Virus record (IMG/VR): IMGVR_UViG_3300046167_000282
Span: 1 to 32,432 of that record
Length of the DNA stretch: 32,432 nt
Strand: one strand, 5' to 3'
DNA from: a virus
The position numbers and the translations under genes were made by a program. Each line of letters opens with the position of its first letter. Position 1 is the stretch's first letter. Under the pieces are notes generated by a model. The model saw only the letters and a program-made list of their open reading frames with translations, was not told the DNA's origin and did no database searches. Positions 4,593 to 15,087 of this stretch are shown here, in pieces.

Positions 4593-5459
4593 ATGGCTAG
4601 ATATAAAAGAGATACAAAGGTAAACAATTTATTAATCACAGAAAAAACTTATAGAGTTTTCTATCGCATTAATGGAAGGAAGAGAGAACTTACTCTTGGT
4701 ACTAGAGACATACCAATCAATGTAGCAAGAAACAAAGCACAACAAATACTTGGTGAAGTTGCACAAGGTATTGATCCGTTAAATACCAGAGGTGGGGAAA
4801 CTTTAAATCAAGCGTTTGAATATTACATTGATAAGTTAATACAAAATAAAAGAAGAGTTGCTATGCCTAACAAGAACGGTAAGCCTGGCGAGTATGTAAG
4901 AATGTGGGATAAAGATGTTAAGAATGATTTAGGTAAAAGAATTCTAACAGATATAAACAGGGGTGATATTACAAGATTACATTTAGAAATATCTAAAAGA
5001 GGTTCTTATGCTGCTAACAGAGTTGTCCAGATGATATCTGGTTGTTATAACCATGCGATAGCATTATCACTGGTAGAAATAAATCCTTGTAAAATTAAAC
5101 TAAACAAAGAGCTGATTAGTGAGAATGAAATATCAGACAAAGAGTTTGCTGAATTACAAAGACAAATAAACATCAAGAGACAAACTGTTCGACCTAACTT
5201 TGTTAGCTCTTTAGATTACATAGAACTTTGTATGCACTCTGGCGGTAGATGTAAGAGTGAGATAGGCAGTGCCAAGTGGTCTGATTTAAAAGATAACAAG
5301 ATAGTTCTAAGCGAACATAAGACCGACCATGAAACTAATGAAGATAGGGTCATCTATCTAAGCAATCAAGCTATGATGGTTATTAATAAGCTAGAGAGAA
5401 AAGGGAGAATACATCTTAGATGTAGATTACCCTGTAAAGATGTGGAAACAACTAGCTAA
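4593..5459 (+). CDS. int: Tyrosine site-specific integrase, N-terminal and first catalytic part (frame broken)
   Basis: ATG 4593 is chosen over an upstream in-frame TTG at 4557 because GGAGG at 4580-4584 sits 8 bases before it. The N-terminus (YRVFYRINGRKRELTLG, then INVARNKAQQILGEVAQGIDP) matches the arm-binding/DUF4102-like domain of phage P4-type integrases. A helical core-binding domain follows (about 70-170). The first catalytic Arg is in HSGGRCKSEIGSAKW (about residue 217), and a catalytic-Lys region follows at SEHKTDHETNEDRVIYL. The last about 20 residues (GRIHLRCRLPCKDVETTS) do not fit the family, because the frame is lost near 5399-5405. The remaining catalytic residues lie in the next entry. 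The enzyme would integrate and excise the phage genome. Confidence 0.88.
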   Translation: MARYKRDTKVNNLLITEKTYRVFYRINGRKRELTLGTRDIPINVARNKAQQILGEVAQGIDPLNTRGGETLNQAFEYYIDKLIQNKRRVAMPNKNGKPGEYVRMWDKDVKNDLGKRILTDINRGDITRLHLEISKRGSYAANRVVQMISGCYNHAIALSLVEINPCKIKLNKELISENEISDKEFAELQRQINIKRQTVRPNFVSSLDYIELCMHSGGRCKSEIGSAKWSDLKDNKIVLSEHKTDHETNEDRVIYLSNQAMMVINKLERKGRIHLRCRLPCKDVETTS

Positions 5460-7670: not shown

Positions 7671-8453
7671 ATGTCATTAGCAGCAATACAAAAGAAAGCA
7701 AAAGCGAAACCAAGTATTGTTATTATCTATGGCCCGTCTGGTTTAGGTAAGACAACACTGGCAGTAGGTAGTAAGAACCCTATTGTTTTACAAACTGAAG
7801 AAGGACTAGGAATCTTAACTAATAATAGAGACATTCCACACTTTCCTTTAGCAAAAGACTACGATACTTTTTATGGTTATCTAAGGTCTTTAGTTGATGC
7901 AGATGAACTTGAATATAGCACTTTAGTTATTGATAGTTTAGATTGGTTAGAGCCACTCATTCATGCAAAGACCTGTGAAGCACATAAACAACCATCAATA
8001 GAATCTTTTGGTTATGGTCGTGGTTATGCAGAGGCGTTAAAGTATTGGAGAGAGGTTCTTGATTTAGTAAATAGATTAAGAAACGAAAAGAAAATGCGTA
8101 TTGTTATGATTGCTCATAACCAGATTAAAGCATTTCACGATCCATCTACAGAAGCATACGATAGGCATGAACTTAAAATGCACAAAGCAGCAAGTGCCTT
8201 GGTACTTGAAGCAAGTGATATGTGCTTGTTCTTAAACTACAAAAAAGGAACTGTTAAAGTTCAGGGTAGTAAAGGACTAACAAGTAAGACTGTTCAATCT
8301 GGAAGGATATTAGTAACTACTGAATCCCCAGCTTGTGTAGCCAAGAACAGATACGGATTACCAGAACAAATATCAGTCGTAGAAGAAGGCGATGACTTTA
8401 TTGTTAGAGCTGAAAAGACTTGGACTGAAATTGGTAAACTGATTGCGAAGTAA
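7671..8453 (+). CDS. RecA-fold ATPase, Sak4/AAA_24-like recombinase
   Basis: This 260-residue protein has Walker A GPSGLGKTT at residues 20-28, the strand PIVLQTEEGLGIL after it, and Walker B-like LVIDSLDWLEPL at about 84-95. IVMIAHNQI at about 143-151 is a sensor-like segment. This is the layout of the phage nucleotide-binding AAA_24 group, which includes Sak4 single-strand annealing/recombination ATPases. Sak4 proteins usually work with a phage SSB, and a plausible one is encoded two genes downstream. The start at ATG 7671 follows GGAG at 7660-7663. The stop overlaps the next ATG by one base. Confidence 0.8.
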   Translation: MSLAAIQKKAKAKPSIVIIYGPSGLGKTTLAVGSKNPIVLQTEEGLGILTNNRDIPHFPLAKDYDTFYGYLRSLVDADELEYSTLVIDSLDWLEPLIHAKTCEAHKQPSIESFGYGRGYAEALKYWREVLDLVNRLRNEKKMRIVMIAHNQIKAFHDPSTEAYDRHELKMHKAASALVLEASDMCLFLNYKKGTVKVQGSKGLTSKTVQSGRILVTTESPACVAKNRYGLPEQISVVEEGDDFIVRAEKTWTEIGKLIAK

Positions 8454-9183: not shown

Positions 9184-9529
9184 TAATGATGATCTTAAGT
9201 ATCGGAGGCCGAGTCTATGTTCATACTGTCATGGACTTAGCTCTCCGCTACTTCATATCCGTAATGGCAAGATTAAAGGTGCTTGTTGTTACGAACATCT
9301 TAAACTTATTGGAGAAGGTAAAAAAATGGAGCATATTAAAAATTTCGCACAGATTAACGAGGAGCTGTTATCTGTTGCACTCACGGAAAGTAAATCAAAA
9401 TACTTAGAAGTTTCCAAAAAGAATAAATCGTTTGTCCTACATGAATGGACTAAAGAAGACAGGATTAGTTTTATAAGAAGGCTTGTGTCAAGTTATCTCA
9501 ATAACTCCAAGGCACAGGCTGATGACTGA
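9152..9529 (+). CDS. Small zinc-finger-like protein between SSB and helicase
   Basis: The coding frame is clear from about 9182 onward: LCSYCHGLSSPLLHIRNGKIKGACCYEHL carries a CxxC and a CCxxH, a plausible zinc site. A polar helical tail follows, including LHEWTKEDRISFIRRLV. The start is uncertain. ATG 9152 is the nearest in-frame ATG and would overlap the SSB-like gene, with GAGG 14 bases upstream. An ATG at 9326 would lose the Cys cluster. The stop TGA at 9527-9529 overlaps the helicase ATG (ATGACTGA), so expression is coupled. Function is not recognised, and a role with primase or recombination is only suggested by position. Confidence 0.6.
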   Translation: MLKTKTTYLFSNDDLKYRRPSLCSYCHGLSSPLLHIRNGKIKGACCYEHLKLIGEGKKMEHIKNFAQINEELLSVALTESKSKYLEVSKKNKSFVLHEWTKEDRISFIRRLVSSYLNNSKAQADD

Positions 9530-11198
9530 CTTAACAAAATTTTATGGAGACAAGGGTATTGTTCTCGACCAGAACTATGCCTTTAGTAATACAAGTAAAT
9601 CTAATGCTGACTTAATCAATGAGATGCGTTCTCATGGTTTGTTAGTTGATTTCTTAGATACAACAGGCAACTTAGTTAGAGTTCCTGTAAGTGCTGGTGT
9701 AAATCACAGACCAGATAAAGGTGGAGAACGTAGCGGATACTATGTTTATAACCAGTTAGATCAAAACTTTGTATGCGTTTACGGTAACTGGCGTACTAAT
9801 TTAGAGAACAAGTTTACTTCTTACAATCCTAATGAGATGTCTGCCGAGCAAAAAAGGGTATTACAAACCAAGCTCGAGGAGGCACAAAAGCGGAGAGAAG
9901 AGGCTAAGAAAATACAGCACCAACAGGTTGCCATATATGTTAAAGAAAAGTTTGCTAGTGCGAATGAAGTTATAGAGCATAAGTATCTCACAGATAAAGG
10001 TATTAAAAATTATGGTTTAAAAACGATTAATGGAAACCTATTAATCGGGGTGCATTCTATCATAAGAAATAATGATAATGGGTTATTAGTTTCAGAAATA
10101 AAGTCTTTGCAATACATCATGCCAGATGGCAGTAAAAAGTTTGCTGGAGGCGGAGAAGTTAAGGGTAATGTATTCTTAATTGGTTGTAAGGCAGATGAAC
10201 TACCTAGTTTAGAAACGATTATTTTATGTGAAGGATACGCCACAGGAAGCTCTATATACGAAGCTACAGGTCTACCTGTCGCGGTGGTATTCTCTGCAAA
10301 TTTCTGTTTAACAGCGTGTAACAGGTTGCGTTCTATCACTAGTGCAAAGTTTATAATCGCACTTGATAACGATACTTCTGGAATAGGCGAGAAATGTGCT
10401 AATGAAGTTGTTAGCAGTATTAGTAATGCAGTTTCCAGATTGCCTTCTATTGTTGGAGACTTTAACGACCTGTATTTAGAGAAGGGTTTAGATCAAGTTA
10501 AGTTAGAGTTAGTAGAGTCTAAGTTTAATATTAGACAATATGCAATAAGAAACTTTGTTGAAGAACCTAAACCAATAGAATGGTTGGTAGATAGTTTCAT
10601 TCCTTTTGGTAAACCAGGAATCATTGCGGCAGTTGGTGGCGTTGGTAAGTCTTTATCAATGATTCAGTTAGCTCTGGGCATTGCGACTGGCGGTAACTGG
10701 TGGGGTAAAACCATAAAACAAAAAGGGTCAACTGTAATATTCGCGGCTGAAGATGATTTGTCTGAAGTACATAGAAGGATTGATGCACTTGATCCTATGG
10801 GACTTAGGTTTCAATCTGAGTATGACGTTTATGTATTTCCGATTCCAGAACAAAAAGAACCAATGATTTTGTTGAGAGAAGAGGGAGTAACAGCACAAGC
10901 GACAGAGTTAGTAGAAGAATTAAAAGGTATTCCAAACTTAAAACTGGTTGTATTCGACCCATTACAAGCATTTACGACTGGTAATATCAGTTCAAGTAAT
11001 GAAGTTGGCCAGTTATGGGGTAGTTATTGTGCAAATATATCAGCCAGATTAGGTGTTACGACTCTTACAGTTCATCACTTGGCAAAATCTGCCCTTACTA
11101 ATGATTCAGATGATGCACTTTCGCACCGTGCTGAGATACGTGGTGCTTCAAGTATCACTGACAGTGTTAGGTTTCGCGATAGCTATGTGGTTAGCTGA
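9522..11198 (+). CDS. TOPRIM primase-like / RepA-type helicase, main part (frame broken at the end)
   Basis: ATG 9522, overlapping the previous stop, gives the natural start; an in-frame GTG at 9483 lies inside the previous gene. The protein has an N-terminal domain with Trp/Tyr strands and a charged coiled coil (about 115-145). A TOPRIM-like region follows with CEGYATGSSIYEATG (about 235) and ALDNDTSG (about 280). Next is a RepA/AAA_25 helicase domain with Walker A GGVGKS (about 371-376), Walker B LVVFDP (about 475), HHLAKS (about 517) and RGASSITDSV (about 539). The final residues RDSYVVS are out of frame, and the family sequence resumes in +1. It should act as replicative primase-helicase or helicase loader. 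Confidence 0.8.
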   Translation: MTDLTKFYGDKGIVLDQNYAFSNTSKSNADLINEMRSHGLLVDFLDTTGNLVRVPVSAGVNHRPDKGGERSGYYVYNQLDQNFVCVYGNWRTNLENKFTSYNPNEMSAEQKRVLQTKLEEAQKRREEAKKIQHQQVAIYVKEKFASANEVIEHKYLTDKGIKNYGLKTINGNLLIGVHSIIRNNDNGLLVSEIKSLQYIMPDGSKKFAGGGEVKGNVFLIGCKADELPSLETIILCEGYATGSSIYEATGLPVAVVFSANFCLTACNRLRSITSAKFIIALDNDTSGIGEKCANEVVSSISNAVSRLPSIVGDFNDLYLEKGLDQVKLELVESKFNIRQYAIRNFVEEPKPIEWLVDSFIPFGKPGIIAAVGGVGKSLSMIQLALGIATGGNWWGKTIKQKGSTVIFAAEDDLSEVHRRIDALDPMGLRFQSEYDVYVFPIPEQKEPMILLREEGVTAQATELVEELKGIPNLKLVVFDPLQAFTTGNISSSNEVGQLWGSYCANISARLGVTTLTVHHLAKSALTNDSDDALSHRAEIRGASSITDSVRFRDSYVVS

Positions 11199-11379
11199 TA
11201 ACGATACGTGCGAAAAGATATGCATGGAGCAAGGCATAAAGGTAGACAGAATGGCAGTCGTTAAAGCCAGTCTGGTTAAAAGTAACTCTGGAAATGTAGA
11301 CTATGAAACCAAGACTTTGGTTAGACGTGGTGCAGTTCTGGAAATATTAGAAAATAAAACGTCCTTTGATTGGGACTAA
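11173..11379 (+). CDS. C-terminal end of the TOPRIM-helicase, in the +1 frame
   Basis: From TTC at 11173 the frame reads FAIAMWLADNDTCEKICMEQG and completes the RGASSITDSVRF-A-I-A-M motif expected of RepA-like ATPases. A normal C-terminal domain (MAVVKASLVKSNSG, then LVRRGAVLEIL) runs to TAA 11377-11379. There is no separate start signal here. Removing one T from the TTT at 11172-11174 (or the C after it) would restore a single protein of about 618 residues. Confidence 0.75.
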   Translation, partial: FAIAMWLADNDTCEKICMEQGIKVDRMAVVKASLVKSNSGNVDYETKTLVRRGAVLEILENKTSFDWD

Positions 11380-11391
11380 GGAGAAAGGAAA

Positions 11392-11553
11392 ATGAAGTGT
11401 TGGCAATGTAATGAAGAATTAATATGGGGTGGCGACCATACGGGAGAGGACTATGGTAATGAAGATTATGAAATTGTAAGTAATCTATCTTGTCCTAAAT
11501 GTGATGCACTGGTTATGGTTTATCACCAAAAAAAAGAGGAGTCTGAACAATGA
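11392..11553 (+). CDS. 53-residue zinc-ribbon mini-protein
   Basis: The ATG at 11392 is preceded by GGAGAAAGG at about 11380-11388. The protein opens MKCWQCNEELIWGGDH and later has LSCPKCDALVMVYH, so two CxxC pairs about 30 residues apart would bind one zinc. The middle is acidic. Similar zinc-ribbon mini-proteins are common next to phage replication genes, with unknown role. Its stop abuts the ATG of the next mini-gene. Confidence 0.7.
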   Translation: MKCWQCNEELIWGGDHTGEDYGNEDYEIVSNLSCPKCDALVMVYHQKKEESEQ

Positions 11554-11682
11554 ATGGAAAGGGAAGCGACCAGACGACCAAGACAAGTAGATAAAAAAGT
11601 ATTTGAGGATAATTGGGATAGGATATTTGGTAAGAAAAAGACCAAAAAAGAGACCAAAAAGAAGGATGAAAAGAAAAAGTAA
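11554..11682 (+). CDS. 42-residue basic mini-protein with VFEDNWDRIFG motif
   Basis: The ATG at 11554 immediately follows the previous stop (TGAATG). The product begins MEREATRRPRQVDKKVFED and contains DNWDRIFGKK, then a very Lys-rich tail (KKKTKKETKKKDEKKK). The RPRxVDxxxFxxNWDxIFG pattern is a recurrent small phage protein that I recognise, but its function is unknown. It is the last gene before the repeat-bearing control region. Confidence 0.65.
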   Translation: MEREATRRPRQVDKKVFEDNWDRIFGKKKTKKETKKKDEKKK

Positions 11683-11692
11683 TCGGATACAC

Positions 11693-11754
11693 GGGTAGCC
11701 GATTATCGTATATAGGGGTAGCCGATTATCGGCTATATGGGTAGCCGAATATCC
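11693..11754 (+). repeat. Three iteron-like repeats with exact 23-bp period; the middle one is a palindrome
   Basis: GGGTAGCCGATTATCG occurs at 11693-11708 and 11716-11731, and a third copy with two changes (GGGTAGCCGAATATCC) at 11739-11754. Starts are exactly 23 bases apart. Around the middle copy, TAGCCGAT-T-ATCGGCTA (11719-11735) is a perfect 8-bp inverted repeat with a one-base centre. The first copy keeps a degenerate version. The 7-base gaps rule out a CRISPR. This looks like an array of binding sites for a dimeric HTH protein, either operators or replication iterons. Confidence 0.85.
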
Positions 11755-11769
11755 AAGACTAGACTAATA

Positions 11770-11798
11770 GAGAGAGTGAGCCTTGCGGCTCATCTCTC
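11770..11798 (+). terminator. Strong hairpin after the early operon
   Basis: GAGAGAGTGAGCC (11770-11782), loop TTGC, and GGCTCATCTCTC (11787-11798) form a 12-bp stem with a single bulged G. It is followed by AGGGAAAAAG, not a T-run, on the plus strand, so as a rightward terminator it is atypical. It may terminate the early operon, protect an mRNA end, or be part of an origin or control structure with the adjacent repeats. Confidence 0.6.
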
Positions 11799-11850
11799 AG
11801 GGAAAAAGAATCAGTAGGAATTGTATTAATTAAGGTGGAATAAAAGAAGC

Positions 11851-12288
11851 ATGAAAGAGCAGAAGTGGTGGTTAGTTGTTGAAGCGATTGAGAGTCCAGA
11901 GGAAAGCGGATTGATACCTTACGGTCTAGCTATGAAGTATAAGAACTATGCGAAGCTGAAGAAGGTCGTCTGGAAGTGGTATAAGAAACACCTGGGGAGG
12001 ACGGATATAAAGGGTAGGGAGAAGCTCGTTTTGTATGCTCTTTGTGAGAGGTATTCTGCACAGGATTATTCAAGCCATGATGCGGTTAGCTACTTGGCGT
12101 TAATGATTGGCATGAACAGGCATACGGTTAGTAAAGGTATTCAGAATCTAATGGACCAGAATATTATCTGGTGTGCTATTGATAAAGAGAAGAAGGTGTT
12201 AAGAAACTTGAAGGCAGGAGTTCAACATAAGCATTTTTTGTTTGTTGGTTTGGGCGTGATGTTGGAAAGGGAAAGCCAAGACGAGTAG
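11851..12288 (+). CDS. Winged-helix/HTH protein, candidate replication initiator or regulator
   Basis: This 145-residue protein has a basic, Trp/Tyr-rich N-terminal half (MKYKNYAKLKKVVWKWYKKHL). From about residue 60 it has an HTH_36/Rep-like winged helix: GREKLVLYALCERYS, then VSYLALMIGMNRHTVSKGIQNLMDQNIIW. That arrangement is used by phage replication initiators (O/DnaD-like) and by transcription regulators. It lies directly downstream of the 23-bp repeat array, its likely target. Codon use is unusual here: 14 of 18 Lys codons are AAG and many Arg codons are AGG, while neighbours favour AAA and AGA, suggesting recent transfer. An AAGGTGG site precedes the ATG, at a long spacing of about 12 bases. 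Confidence 0.7.
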   Translation: MKEQKWWLVVEAIESPEESGLIPYGLAMKYKNYAKLKKVVWKWYKKHLGRTDIKGREKLVLYALCERYSAQDYSSHDAVSYLALMIGMNRHTVSKGIQNLMDQNIIWCAIDKEKKVLRNLKAGVQHKHFLFVGLGVMLERESQDE

Positions 12289-12451: not shown

Positions 12452-12619
12452 TTAATTATACCTATCTTTTTGATAAGTTTCCTTAATTTGGTTTTTAGTT
12501 ACTTTAATTACTTGGTTTGTTTCTTCGTCTAGGAAGTCAATCTTGTTTTTGTCTGAGTCTTTATAGTCCTCTCTGACGTATCCAAAAATTGTAGTCCCTT
12601 GTATTTGTACTCTATTCAT
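12452..12619 (-). CDS. 55-residue protein, last gene of the leftward operon
   Basis: The minus-strand ATG at 12619 is preceded by AAGGGG, and the frame runs to TAA at 12452-12454. The product is polar (MNRVQIQGTTIFGYVREDYK, then KIDFLDEETNQVIKVTKNQI). It looks like a small beta-rich domain with alternating hydrophobic residues. No family is recognised. The start overlaps the end of the upstream gene by 8 bases, consistent with translational coupling. Confidence 0.6.
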   Translation of the reverse strand: MNRVQIQGTTIFGYVREDYKDSDKNKIDFLDEETNQVIKVTKNQIKETYQKDRYN

Positions 12620-12890
12620 AATACCCCTTTTTAATTTGAAAGAATTTGTATATGAAATCCATTAGAGGGTAGTTCTTTTCACATTCTGCCCATGCAGTAA
12701 TTTCATCAGTAAAATGTAAAAGTGTTTCTTTGCTCTCAGGTTCATAGCGTTTGATTCTAGCTTTGAAGTTCTTGTTGTCGCTAGATTCTAGATGTTGCTT
12801 TGCCAGTTCCTCTGCCTGTTCATATATGTATTTATTGGTTTCAAGAATATATGCGGTTGCTTGTTCTAATTGGATTGAGTCAATCTTCAT
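12612..12890 (-). CDS. 92-residue helical protein, unknown
   Basis: The product is predicted helical and charged (LEQATAYILETNKYIYEQAEELAKQHLES), with aromatic residues near the C-terminus (WAECEKNYPLMDFIYKFFQ). Its ATG overlaps the stop of the upstream membrane peptide gene as ATGA. No family is recognised. It belongs to the early/accessory leftward operon. Confidence 0.65.
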   Translation of the reverse strand: MKIDSIQLEQATAYILETNKYIYEQAEELAKQHLESSDNKNFKARIKRYEPESKETLLHFTDEITAWAECEKNYPLMDFIYKFFQIKKGYYE

Positions 12891-12976
12891 ATTGCACCGC
12901 CATTAATTAGATAAAGTATCCAAACACAGGTTAATAATCCTATGATTGATATTCGCATCATTAGATCGTGCTTCAT
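12887..12976 (-). CDS. 29-residue single-pass membrane peptide
   Basis: The frame MKHDLMMRISIIGLLTCVWILYLINGGAI consists of a short charged N-terminus and one hydrophobic helix of about 18 residues. Both ends overlap neighbours as ATGA: its ATG with the stop of the upstream gene, its TGA with the ATG of the downstream gene. This exact coupling is the main evidence that such a short frame is real. The role is unknown; a membrane-targeted phage peptide or a coupling leader are both possible. Confidence 0.6.
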   Translation of the reverse strand: MKHDLMMRISIIGLLTCVWILYLINGGAI

Positions 12977-13218
12977 TGTTCATTTACTCCAAAATATTCA
13001 TATTCTATTGTTACGTCTACTTGGTGCTGGTCTTCTAAAGCATACATATCTATTACTGATTTTAATAAGTTATCTTTTGCTTTTTCAAACTTCTTTGCTT
13101 TAGATTCATCACAAGGAACGCTAAATTGTATTTCCGCATGGGTTATCTCTTTAACATTGTCTGGAAAGTCTCCGTATGTTGTTGCTTTAATTTTTACTCC
13201 AATATATTCAATACTCAT
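12973..13218 (-). CDS. 81-residue protein, unknown
   Basis: This product has alternating strand-like segments (EYIGVKIKATTYGDF, AEIQFSVPCDE, VDVTIEYEYFG) around a central helix (KAKKFEKAKDNLLKSVIDMYAL). A small alpha/beta fold is likely. It starts one base inside the upstream gene's stop (TAATG-type junction) and is coupled downstream by ATGA. No family is recognised. Confidence 0.65.
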   Translation of the reverse strand: MSIEYIGVKIKATTYGDFPDNVKEITHAEIQFSVPCDESKAKKFEKAKDNLLKSVIDMYALEDQHQVDVTIEYEYFGVNEQ

Positions 13219-13460
13219 TATTCTTGCACCTCCTCTTTTACGTGCTTAATTAGTTCATGGTAATAGAAGTTATCGTTTTCTATTTCTTGGATTATTGCTC
13301 TGCCTATTTCCTCCCTCGTTGGTGGTTGATGACCAACAAAAGTATTAAACTCGATTGGCTGTAATTGTATTACTACCTTTTGAGGTTCTTCTTGCGGCAT
13401 GGTTTTAATATCGCGTTCTATTTCTATAAGTTCTCTTATTCTGTCTGCATCATTAGACAT
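13218..13460 (-). CDS. 80-residue acidic protein, unknown
   Basis: The sequence has an acidic helical N-terminus (NDADRIRELIEIERDIKT), a Gln/Val strand (KVVIQLQPIEFNTF) and an acidic helical C-terminus. The first ATG at 13460 lies 8 bases inside the upstream gene. No family is recognised. Part of the coupled leftward operon. Confidence 0.65.
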   Translation of the reverse strand: MSNDADRIRELIEIERDIKTMPQEEPQKVVIQLQPIEFNTFVGHQPPTREEIGRAIIQEIENDNFYYHELIKHVKEEVQE

Positions 13461-13707
13461 TTTTATTTCTCCTGGCTTTCGCCTTTTGGTTGGTGTTATC
13501 TCGCACCATTTGTATATCTGGTTGTATGTCTTCCAGAATTAGCTTTTTAACTTCGCTAACTGTAAGACCGTTTAATTCTTTGGTTAAACTTAATATTAAA
13601 ATGTCGCTTAGTTTAGGTATCCATGTTTGATGGTACTGTTTCTCTTGGCAGTCTAAGTTATAGCACCAATCAATGATTAGGCCGTTGATGTTTATTGAAA
13701 ATATCAT
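13453..13707 (-). CDS. 84-residue protein, unknown, start corrected to 13707
   Basis: A longer frame exists upstream to 13821, but ATG 13707 is preferred because it overlaps the stop of a membrane peptide gene as ATGA, as elsewhere in this operon. The extra N-terminal stretch would also run through the two upstream genes. The product (MIFSININGLIIDWCYNLD, later LTKELNGLTVSEVKKLILEDI) is a mixed alpha/beta protein with a basic tail. No family is recognised. Confidence 0.6.
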   Translation of the reverse strand: MIFSININGLIIDWCYNLDCQEKQYHQTWIPKLSDILILSLTKELNGLTVSEVKKLILEDIQPDIQMVRDNTNQKAKARRNKNV

Positions 13708-13790
13708 TGGTCTTTGTCCTTGATGATTAGTGCTACGCCATAAAGACTTATGGCCATCAATATTAGTATTGGTATTAGTTGTATGTCCAT
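13704..13790 (-). CDS. 28-residue single-pass membrane peptide
   Basis: The frame MDIQLIPILILMAISLYGVALIIKDKDQ is one hydrophobic helix with a charged C-terminus. Its ATG overlaps the stop of the upstream zinc-binding gene (TAATG), and its TGA overlaps the ATG of the next gene (ATGA). It resembles the 29-residue peptide at 12887-12976 in size, topology and coupling, although the sequences are not obviously related. Confidence 0.6.
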   Translation of the reverse strand: MDIQLIPILILMAISLYGVALIIKDKDQ

Positions 13791-13996
13791 TAGTTACATA
13801 ACTCCTCAAATTCTTCTTCACTCATTTGACAATTAGGGCATAAATATCCGTCCCTGTATTGTCCGTCTGCAAAGATAGTATTGCCTTTATCATCAAGGCT
13901 TTCATAATCAGCATCAGCTGGAATACGATTGACAAATCTACCACTTCCAAAAGATGTATCTTGATTACAACATACGCAATTATTTCCTATATCCAT
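13790..13996 (-). CDS. 68-residue zinc-binding protein
   Basis: The protein has CVCC near the N-terminus (about residues 7-10) and CPNC near the C-terminus (about 53-56), plus FVNRIPADAD in between. The two Cys pairs would bind a zinc ion in a rubredoxin-like knuckle. The Cys pair followed by RFVNRIPAD is a pattern I recognise from small phage proteins of unknown function. It directly follows the upstream gene with no gap. Confidence 0.7.
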   Translation of the reverse strand: MDIGNNCVCCNQDTSFGSGRFVNRIPADADYESLDDKGNTIFADGQYRDGYLCPNCQMSEEEFEELCN

Positions 13997-14182
13997 TTAG
14001 TCTTGCTCCTCCTTTTCTTCTTCATCAGTCCAATCTAATTCTTCATGGTATGTATCAGAGGCAATTTCTTCTTCTTGCCCTTCTCCATCATGGAACTTAT
14101 CCCATGCTTCATCTTCTGATTTGGCTTTTACTGTTACCTCATGCTCAACGTATGACTTAGTTATAAAAGTATATGTATTCAT
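13997..14182 (-). CDS. 61-residue acidic protein, unknown
   Basis: A short beta-like N-terminus (MNTYTFITKSYVEHEVTVKAKSEDEAWDKF) is followed by an extremely acidic tail (EEIASDTYHEELDWTDEEEKEEQ). The tail could mimic DNA or serve as a protein-binding arm. That is speculation from charge only. Its ATG overlaps the upstream stop by one base. Confidence 0.65.
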   Translation of the reverse strand: MNTYTFITKSYVEHEVTVKAKSEDEAWDKFHDGEGQEEEIASDTYHEELDWTDEEEKEEQD

Positions 14183-14364
14183 TAATCTTGCTCCCTGTTT
14201 GTTGGTTTACCATTTGGAAAGGTTAAGGCTTCGCTAAACTCTTTCCAGTCCTTAGGTGTCATTGCAATTTCTACCTTGTGAATAGGCGTATTATCTTTTA
14301 GTCCGTACTTCTTGCGAAGCTGTCCAATAATGCTTTTACTTGACGATCGATTTTTGTTGCTCAT
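14182..14364 (-). CDS. 60-residue basic protein, unknown, start at 14364
   Basis: ATG 14364 is preferred over an upstream in-frame ATG at 14448 because GGGAGG lies just before it and the longer version would overlap the upstream gene by 80 bases. The product is basic at the N-terminus (MSNKNRSSSKSIIGQLRKKYGL) with a C-terminal helix (TPKDWKEFSEAL). No family is recognised. The basic first half may bind nucleic acid. Confidence 0.6.
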   Translation of the reverse strand: MSNKNRSSSKSIIGQLRKKYGLKDNTPIHKVEIAMTPKDWKEFSEALTFPNGKPTNREQD

Positions 14365-14368
14365 TGGT

Positions 14369-14599
14369 TTAATCCTCCCTCTGTTCCCAGTACGTCCAGT
14401 AATATAAATCAGAATGTCCATCATGCTTATAATCTTCTTCAGCTTCACTAAATCCCTCTTTTCCTAAAACCTGTTCTACACATTTAATTGAACAAACAGA
14501 TTCAGCACCACCAACAATAAACACACCCTTATCTTGGTCAAGTTTATCAATTGTGCTATTACAAGACTCACAAGCTATATTCCATGTTTCTTTGCTCAT
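14369..14599 (-). CDS. 76-residue Cys-pair protein, possible zinc binding
   Basis: CESCN at about residues 10-14 and CSIKC at about 36-40 give CxxC and CxxxC, a plausible metal site. The C-terminus is acidic and aromatic (DLYYWTYWEQRED). The start overlaps the stop of the upstream gene as ATGA. No family is recognised. It is the second Cys-rich small protein in this operon. Confidence 0.65.
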   Translation of the reverse strand: MSKETWNIACESCNSTIDKLDQDKGVFIVGGAESVCSIKCVEQVLGKEGFSEAEEDYKHDGHSDLYYWTYWEQRED

Positions 14600-14781
14600 T
14601 GTTCCACCGCCTCTAGTAATTCTTGTTCTATAAATTCTGCTACTTTGTTTCTTAAAAGACAGATTGCCATAAATTGCGGATGTTCAATATCAATCTTACT
14701 AACTCCGTGCTTTTCTAAAAGATTATAAAAATCATCTTGAAAACTTATAAATTGGTTGTCGCTCATTTCTTTTGCACTCAT
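14596..14781 (-). CDS. 61-residue helical protein, unknown
   Basis: The sequence is mostly helical (FQDDFYNLLEKHGVSKI, then FMAICLLRNKVAEFIEQELLEAVEQ) with no metal-binding or catalytic signature. ATG 14781 abuts the stop of the first gene of the operon. No family is recognised. Confidence 0.62.
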   Translation of the reverse strand: MSAKEMSDNQFISFQDDFYNLLEKHGVSKIDIEHPQFMAICLLRNKVAEFIEQELLEAVEQ

Positions 14782-15087
14782 CTACGCGACCTCTACTTGG
14801 TTATCTTGTAACCATTGATTGCCAACTACTTGCAGTCTTTGATATATTGAAAATGATAGTTGAGCATATATATCTCCCTCTACCTCGTGGTCATTATATC
14901 CAAGCGTTAAATCAGATTGAGCAACTTCTAATAAATCATAGTTATATATTGGTACCCAACTATCGGCATATTCTGAAACAACATCTTCAGGATAACCATT
15001 TTCTAGTATGTCCTCTTTATTGTCGTTTAGTTCTTCAATTAGATTTTGCTCTAATGTGTAGATGTTTTGTTTGTTTGTATCTGTCAT
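14782..15087 (-). CDS. First gene of the leftward operon, 101-residue acidic protein
   Basis: The ATG at 15087 has an excellent Shine-Dalgarno sequence (AGGAGGT, complement of 15095-15101). The product is acidic throughout (NLIEELNDNKEDILENGYPEDVVSEYADSWVPIYNYDLLEVAQSD) with a more hydrophobic C-terminus. Its composition would suit an inhibitor or DNA-mimic type early protein, but there is no direct evidence. It is closest to the promoter and likely the most strongly expressed gene of the operon. Confidence 0.65.
   Translation of the reverse strand: MTDTNKQNIYTLEQNLIEELNDNKEDILENGYPEDVVSEYADSWVPIYNYDLLEVAQSDLTLGYNDHEVEGDIYAQLSFSIYQRLQVVGNQWLQDNQVEVA

Follow-up and report, generated by a model that had tools for sequence, protein, structure and literature searches.

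A three-dyad array that covaries with an adjacent winged-helix protein is a candidate replication origin in related uncultured marine phages

The window analysed here is the whole of the 32,432 bp virus record IMGVR_UViG_3300046167_000282, and the relatives with which it was compared were drawn from IMG/VR. The family to which it belongs consists of uncultured marine phages. Its TerL shares ~50% identity with podovirus-like records (for example, MW202483) and 36% with epsilon15. The window encodes integrase and excisionase-like genes, the integrase being divided into two overlapping frames (5440–5459); no close prophages of this kind were found in the named genomes searched. Rfam and tRNA scans of the whole window gave no match.

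The locus described here follows a recombination and replication block that encodes PD-D/E-XK nucleases, a Sak4-like annealing ATPase (7671–8453, plus strand) and a primase-helicase with Toprim_3 and AAA_25 domains (9483–11379, plus strand), the last broken in the window by a 1-base frameshift. Single-base indels relative to L008 disrupt both the primase-helicase gene and a small GKGSDQRP-type gene (window 11195–11379 and 11550–11682); these indels and the split integrase are probably sequencing or assembly errors of the record. The DNA at 11382–11525, which covers a small conserved gene (11392–11553), matches Pelagibacter phage HTVC027P and phage 023Pt_psg01 at ~76% identity; the region has no other DNA match in the phage collection. 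In some relatives, a gene that resembles a cytosine methyltransferase, as judged by the start of its sequence, is inserted between the primase-helicase gene and the repeat array (G009 13333–14472; L089). On the other side of the array, gene Y (11851–12288, plus strand) encodes a winged-helix protein of 145 aa, which we propose to be an array-binding initiator. From Y to the terminase, the minus strand carries small, fast-changing genes (12452–15087) that are largely different even among close relatives; one of these (14782–15087) has a weak Ocr-like anti-restriction match (phrog_2568).

The array follows the primase-helicase gene and adjoins the replication genes. An earlier note on this DNA had described three repeats at an exact 23-bp period, a palindrome with 8-bp arms and a 12-bp hairpin, and our analysis confirms all three features. 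The sequence GGGTAGCCGATTATCG occurs as exact copies at 11693–11708 and 11716–11731, and a third copy, GGGTAGCCGAATATCC, with two mismatches, lies at 11739–11754. The three starts (11693, 11716 and 11739) give a period of exactly 23 bp, and no further copy with up to three mismatches is found in the 32 kb (0.08 expected by chance). The palindrome, TAGCCGAT-T-ATCGGCTA at 11719–11735, is perfect, and is composed of the right arm of one dyad and the left arm of the next. Indeed, the repeat unit is better described as a 22-bp imperfect dyad, ATYG-NNN-A-N6-T-NNN-CRAT, that is present three times on the plus strand at 11682–11749: dyad 1 at 11682–11703 (ATCGGATA-CACGGG-TAGCCGAT), dyad 2 at 11705–11726 (ATCGTATA-TAGGGG-TAGCCGAT) and dyad 3 at 11728–11749 (ATCGGCTA-TATGGG-TAGCCGAA). 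The arms of the palindrome belong to dyads 2 and 3. A linker, TATCCAAGACTAGACTAATA (11750–11769, plus strand), joins the array to the hairpin (11770–11798, plus strand; GAGAGAGTGAGCC-TTGC-GGCTCATCTCTC), which has a 12-bp stem with one bulged G and starts 15 nt 3ʹ of the third repeat copy. The 3ʹ end of the array is 101 nt from the start of Y in the window. We considered the hairpin as an intrinsic terminator and ruled this out: the stem is followed by AGGGAAAAAG, and there is no T-run on either strand.

Over 60 relatives of Y are present in IMG/VR, and all those with a readable upstream region have a three-unit array at the same place. Of 34 distinct arrays, 33 have a best period of 23 bp and the remaining one, L053, has a best period of 22 bp. 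Over the same 34 arrays, the dyad arms of units 1, 2 and 3 match at a mean of 6.6, 4.9 and 4.6 of 8 positions, as compared with 2.0 of 8 for slid controls and 2.15 for shuffled controls. Since the arrangement is kept in relatives, it is not due to chance. The letters of the array fall into the types TAGCC, GGGTA/GGTC and TATA/TACA, and the three units of one phage resemble one another (0.78) more than the same unit does across types (0.68). A comparison of the whole genomes G004 and G009 found most replication genes to be 94–100% identical and the arrays to be different. The DNA 5ʹ of the array also varies among relatives. By contrast with the repeats, the linker and hairpin are almost constant across the three types; the linker is kept in main-family relatives despite their differing repeats, and the hairpin stem is preserved by paired changes in some of them. 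The earlier note had looked to conservation of the repeats in related genomes as the test of its proposal. The layout is conserved and the sequence is not, its letters changing together with Y. With respect to orientation, unit 1 is almost reverse-complemented in L018 relative to L013: the arms of dyad 1 are nearly identical, and the 6-base spacer between them, CCCGTA/TACGGG, occurs either way round.

Which protein recognizes the array? In most relatives, a second small winged-helix-like gene, X, lies between the hairpin and Y. X is missing from the window lineage and from L049/L050, where the array, hairpin and Y persist. Furthermore, L023 and L040/L041 have an identical X and different arrays. 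We therefore reject X as the array-binding protein on account of identical X beside different arrays. Larger replacements are seen in L217, L218 and L220, which have an X of the L042/L046 kind, yet a diverged Y that is ~58% identical to the window Y, an entirely different array of 3 × 23 bp and a different bulged hairpin. L228/L229 have a further version in which Y is diverged and the array and hairpin are replaced, with the same 3 × 23 layout. A motif related to the linker is present in the swapped alleles of L217 and L228. Together, these swapped alleles indicate that the array and hairpin change together with Y, as one set. It is highly improbable that the main role of the array and hairpin is as RNA, in antitermination or processing, and that their covariation with Y reflects linkage. 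The dyads could form stem-loops, the pairing of the hairpin is preserved by paired changes, and two of 20 Y proteins have weak matches to Phage_antiter_Q; however, simple linkage leaves unexplained an identical X lying between differing arrays and differing Y helices.

The covariation of Y with the array resolves to individual residues. Residues 89 and 91, at the start of the recognition helix, are N and H with TAGCC arrays (as in the window), N and K with GGGTA arrays, and H and H with TATA arrays; in 46 of the 48 distinct loci, this residue pair agrees with the inner letters of the half-sites. When array labels were shuffled within Y-backbone clades, this level of agreement was reached in 76 of 20,000 trials. 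Of the 429 nucleotide columns of Y, the most informative is the first position of codon 89, followed by the third and first positions of codon 91. At the amino-acid level, positions 15 and 23 outscore 89 and 91, and are multi-state and follow lineage; they are examples of further Y positions whose correlation with array class comes through lineage. Residue 122 agrees with the outer half-site base in 52 of 54 cases: it is R if every half-site reads ATTG and A if ATCG is present (A122 in the window), also inside the TAGCC class. The Y proteins of L013 and L023, which have different arrays, differ only at positions 89, 91, 104 and 122. Y and array are mismatched only in L014 and L037, reciprocally, and both of these come from metagenome 3300046167; they are likely to be chimeric assemblies or products of recent recombination. 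A tree built from X and the Y backbone has 9 changes of array type and 7 of the helix. None of the independent contrasts on this tree is in the wrong direction, and at most five fall on supported branches, which is short of significance. The case for covariation rests on which residues are involved, on pairs that are nearly identical and on replacements of the whole module. These sequence comparisons suggest that Y is very probably the protein that binds the array.

The similarities of Y to described proteins are weak. A Pfam scan detected a weak HTH_36 domain and no RepA_N domain. The family phrog_678, “Replication initiation O-like”, is matched weakly by 19 of 20 Y proteins (best E 9e-4), and hhalign of Y against the N-termini of lambda O proteins gave a weak match (probability 33%, E 4e-4), as compared with a probability of 1% for the X control. 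AlphaFold models from two runs were poor (pLDDT 43–45), and their Foldseek matches are generic MarR folds. Winged helices look alike in general, and the resemblance of Y to O-like initiators is a weak one. Searches of the phage genome collection with Y and X by tblastn gave no match, there are no Y relatives in the genome collection, and the libraries searched hold no described function for the Y family. The C-terminal segment of Y (QHKHFLLVGLGV-like) is nearly invariant among relatives.

The earlier note had proposed either an origin with its initiator or an operator array for an unconventional lysogeny switch. We propose that 11682–11798 is the region that Y binds specifically and that it is most likely the replication origin of the phage, a reading to which we assign a probability of roughly 60%. 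The first of the two earlier proposals is favored by the covariation with Y, by the weak O-like similarity, by the location of the array 3ʹ of the primase-helicase gene and by its occurrence once per genome. The second, in which Y would be an immunity repressor and the array types immunity groups, is quite improbable. The window does have integrase and excisionase-like genes, none of the genes tested was recognizable as a CI-like repressor, and recognition is type-specific. However, control of lytic genes would be expected to involve sites at other promoters, and no second array site with up to five mismatches was found in the 15 scannable genomes; nor is there a conserved sigma-70-like promoter at the array or a link to the integrase. 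Array type is unlinked to integrase type: W/G001 and G007/G011 have integrases that are 95–100% identical and do not share the array. The array is ~6 kb away from int, and we also considered it as an integrase site, attP or an excision site, which we reject given the independence of array type from integrase type.

The main rival to an origin is that Y is a transcriptional regulator, possibly of its own gene, with the dyads as operators for the X-Y genes or for the end of an early operon, and with the hairpin working in the transcript. We consider this unlikely, although dyads that lie 5ʹ of a winged-helix gene and covary with its recognition helix are just as typical of autoregulators, and the hairpin stem is preserved as an RNA stem would be. 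The absence of a conserved sigma-70-like promoter at or next to the array argues against this possibility, with the caveat that the sigma-70 consensus may not be that of the host. Moreover, the DNA 5ʹ of the array differs among relatives, each genome has only one array, and the nearest named families of Y are replication initiators. Two other searches bear on an origin at this site. No low-stability (AT-rich) 40-mer adjoins the array, as judged by duplex stability. Cumulative GC skew, which the earlier note had put forward as a check for origin activity, lent no support: its peak, at 12.5–13 kb, coincides with the switch in gene direction, and a bidirectional origin is unsupported.

If the region is an origin, Y dimers would occupy the three 22-bp dyads next to one another, spaced by the 23-bp period. 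Residues 89 and 91 would read the inner triplet of each half-site, and residue 122 the outer letter that distinguishes ATCG from ATTG. The assembled complex of Y may then open a single strand at the linker and hairpin, and the C-terminal segment of Y may recruit the Toprim-AAA primase-helicase encoded just upstream.

What might be the significance of such variation? We tentatively suggest, as a possibility rather than an expectation, that these phages have interchangeable types of origin specificity set by residues 89, 91 and 122 of Y, and that the types switch repeatedly along with the repeats, leaving other replication machinery unchanged, possibly as an escape from origin decoys, satellites or co-infecting relatives. 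Frequent switching of origins has a plausible driver, since ectopic origin copies block lambda (PMC4488673). If this suggestion is correct, the family is a natural data set of many variants in which joint changes in the specificity of initiator and origin can be followed down to individual residues and bases. It would also suggest origin incompatibility types among phages that occur together, and would account for repeats that seem unconserved in an ordinary sequence search.

Several known systems resemble the locus described here. The Sfi21-type origin is a non-coding region with repeats that follows a primase gene, and by this description it shares intergenic repeats beside a primase gene. 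RSF1010 combines the helicase RepA with an iteron-binding initiator, RepC, and has hairpin initiation sites along with about three iterons of 20 bp. As described, it is similar in its RepA-like helicase, its iteron-binding initiator, its number of iterons and its hairpin sites, although Y is much shorter. In lambda, the O protein binds the iterons of ori-lambda (PMC7466680), which are spaced at 20, 24 and 23 bp; the likeness lies in a winged-helix-like initiator and several short dyad iterons ~20–24 bp apart. In contrast, lambda has four 18-bp iterons inside the initiator gene rather than three 22-bp intergenic dyads, no AT-rich tract or P-type loader like those of lambda was found here, and Y, of only 145 aa, has weak homology to O. 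The PLE satellites of Vibrio cholerae provide a parallel for the covariation: their RepA has a conserved C-terminal part and a DNA-binding part that varies in step with three semi-palindromic iterons, and swap experiments showed that only cognate pairs replicate (PMC8263062). In the phages studied here, likewise, the putative DNA-contacting residues covary with the iterons and the rest is conserved. The PLE initiator is a member of the RepA_N family and is unrelated to Y; unlike in PLE, the covariation here is narrowed to about three residues, and is found in a phage genome, not a satellite. Covarying pairs of initiator and origin are already known, and what is new here is an unrelated-looking, finely resolved case in uncultured phages.
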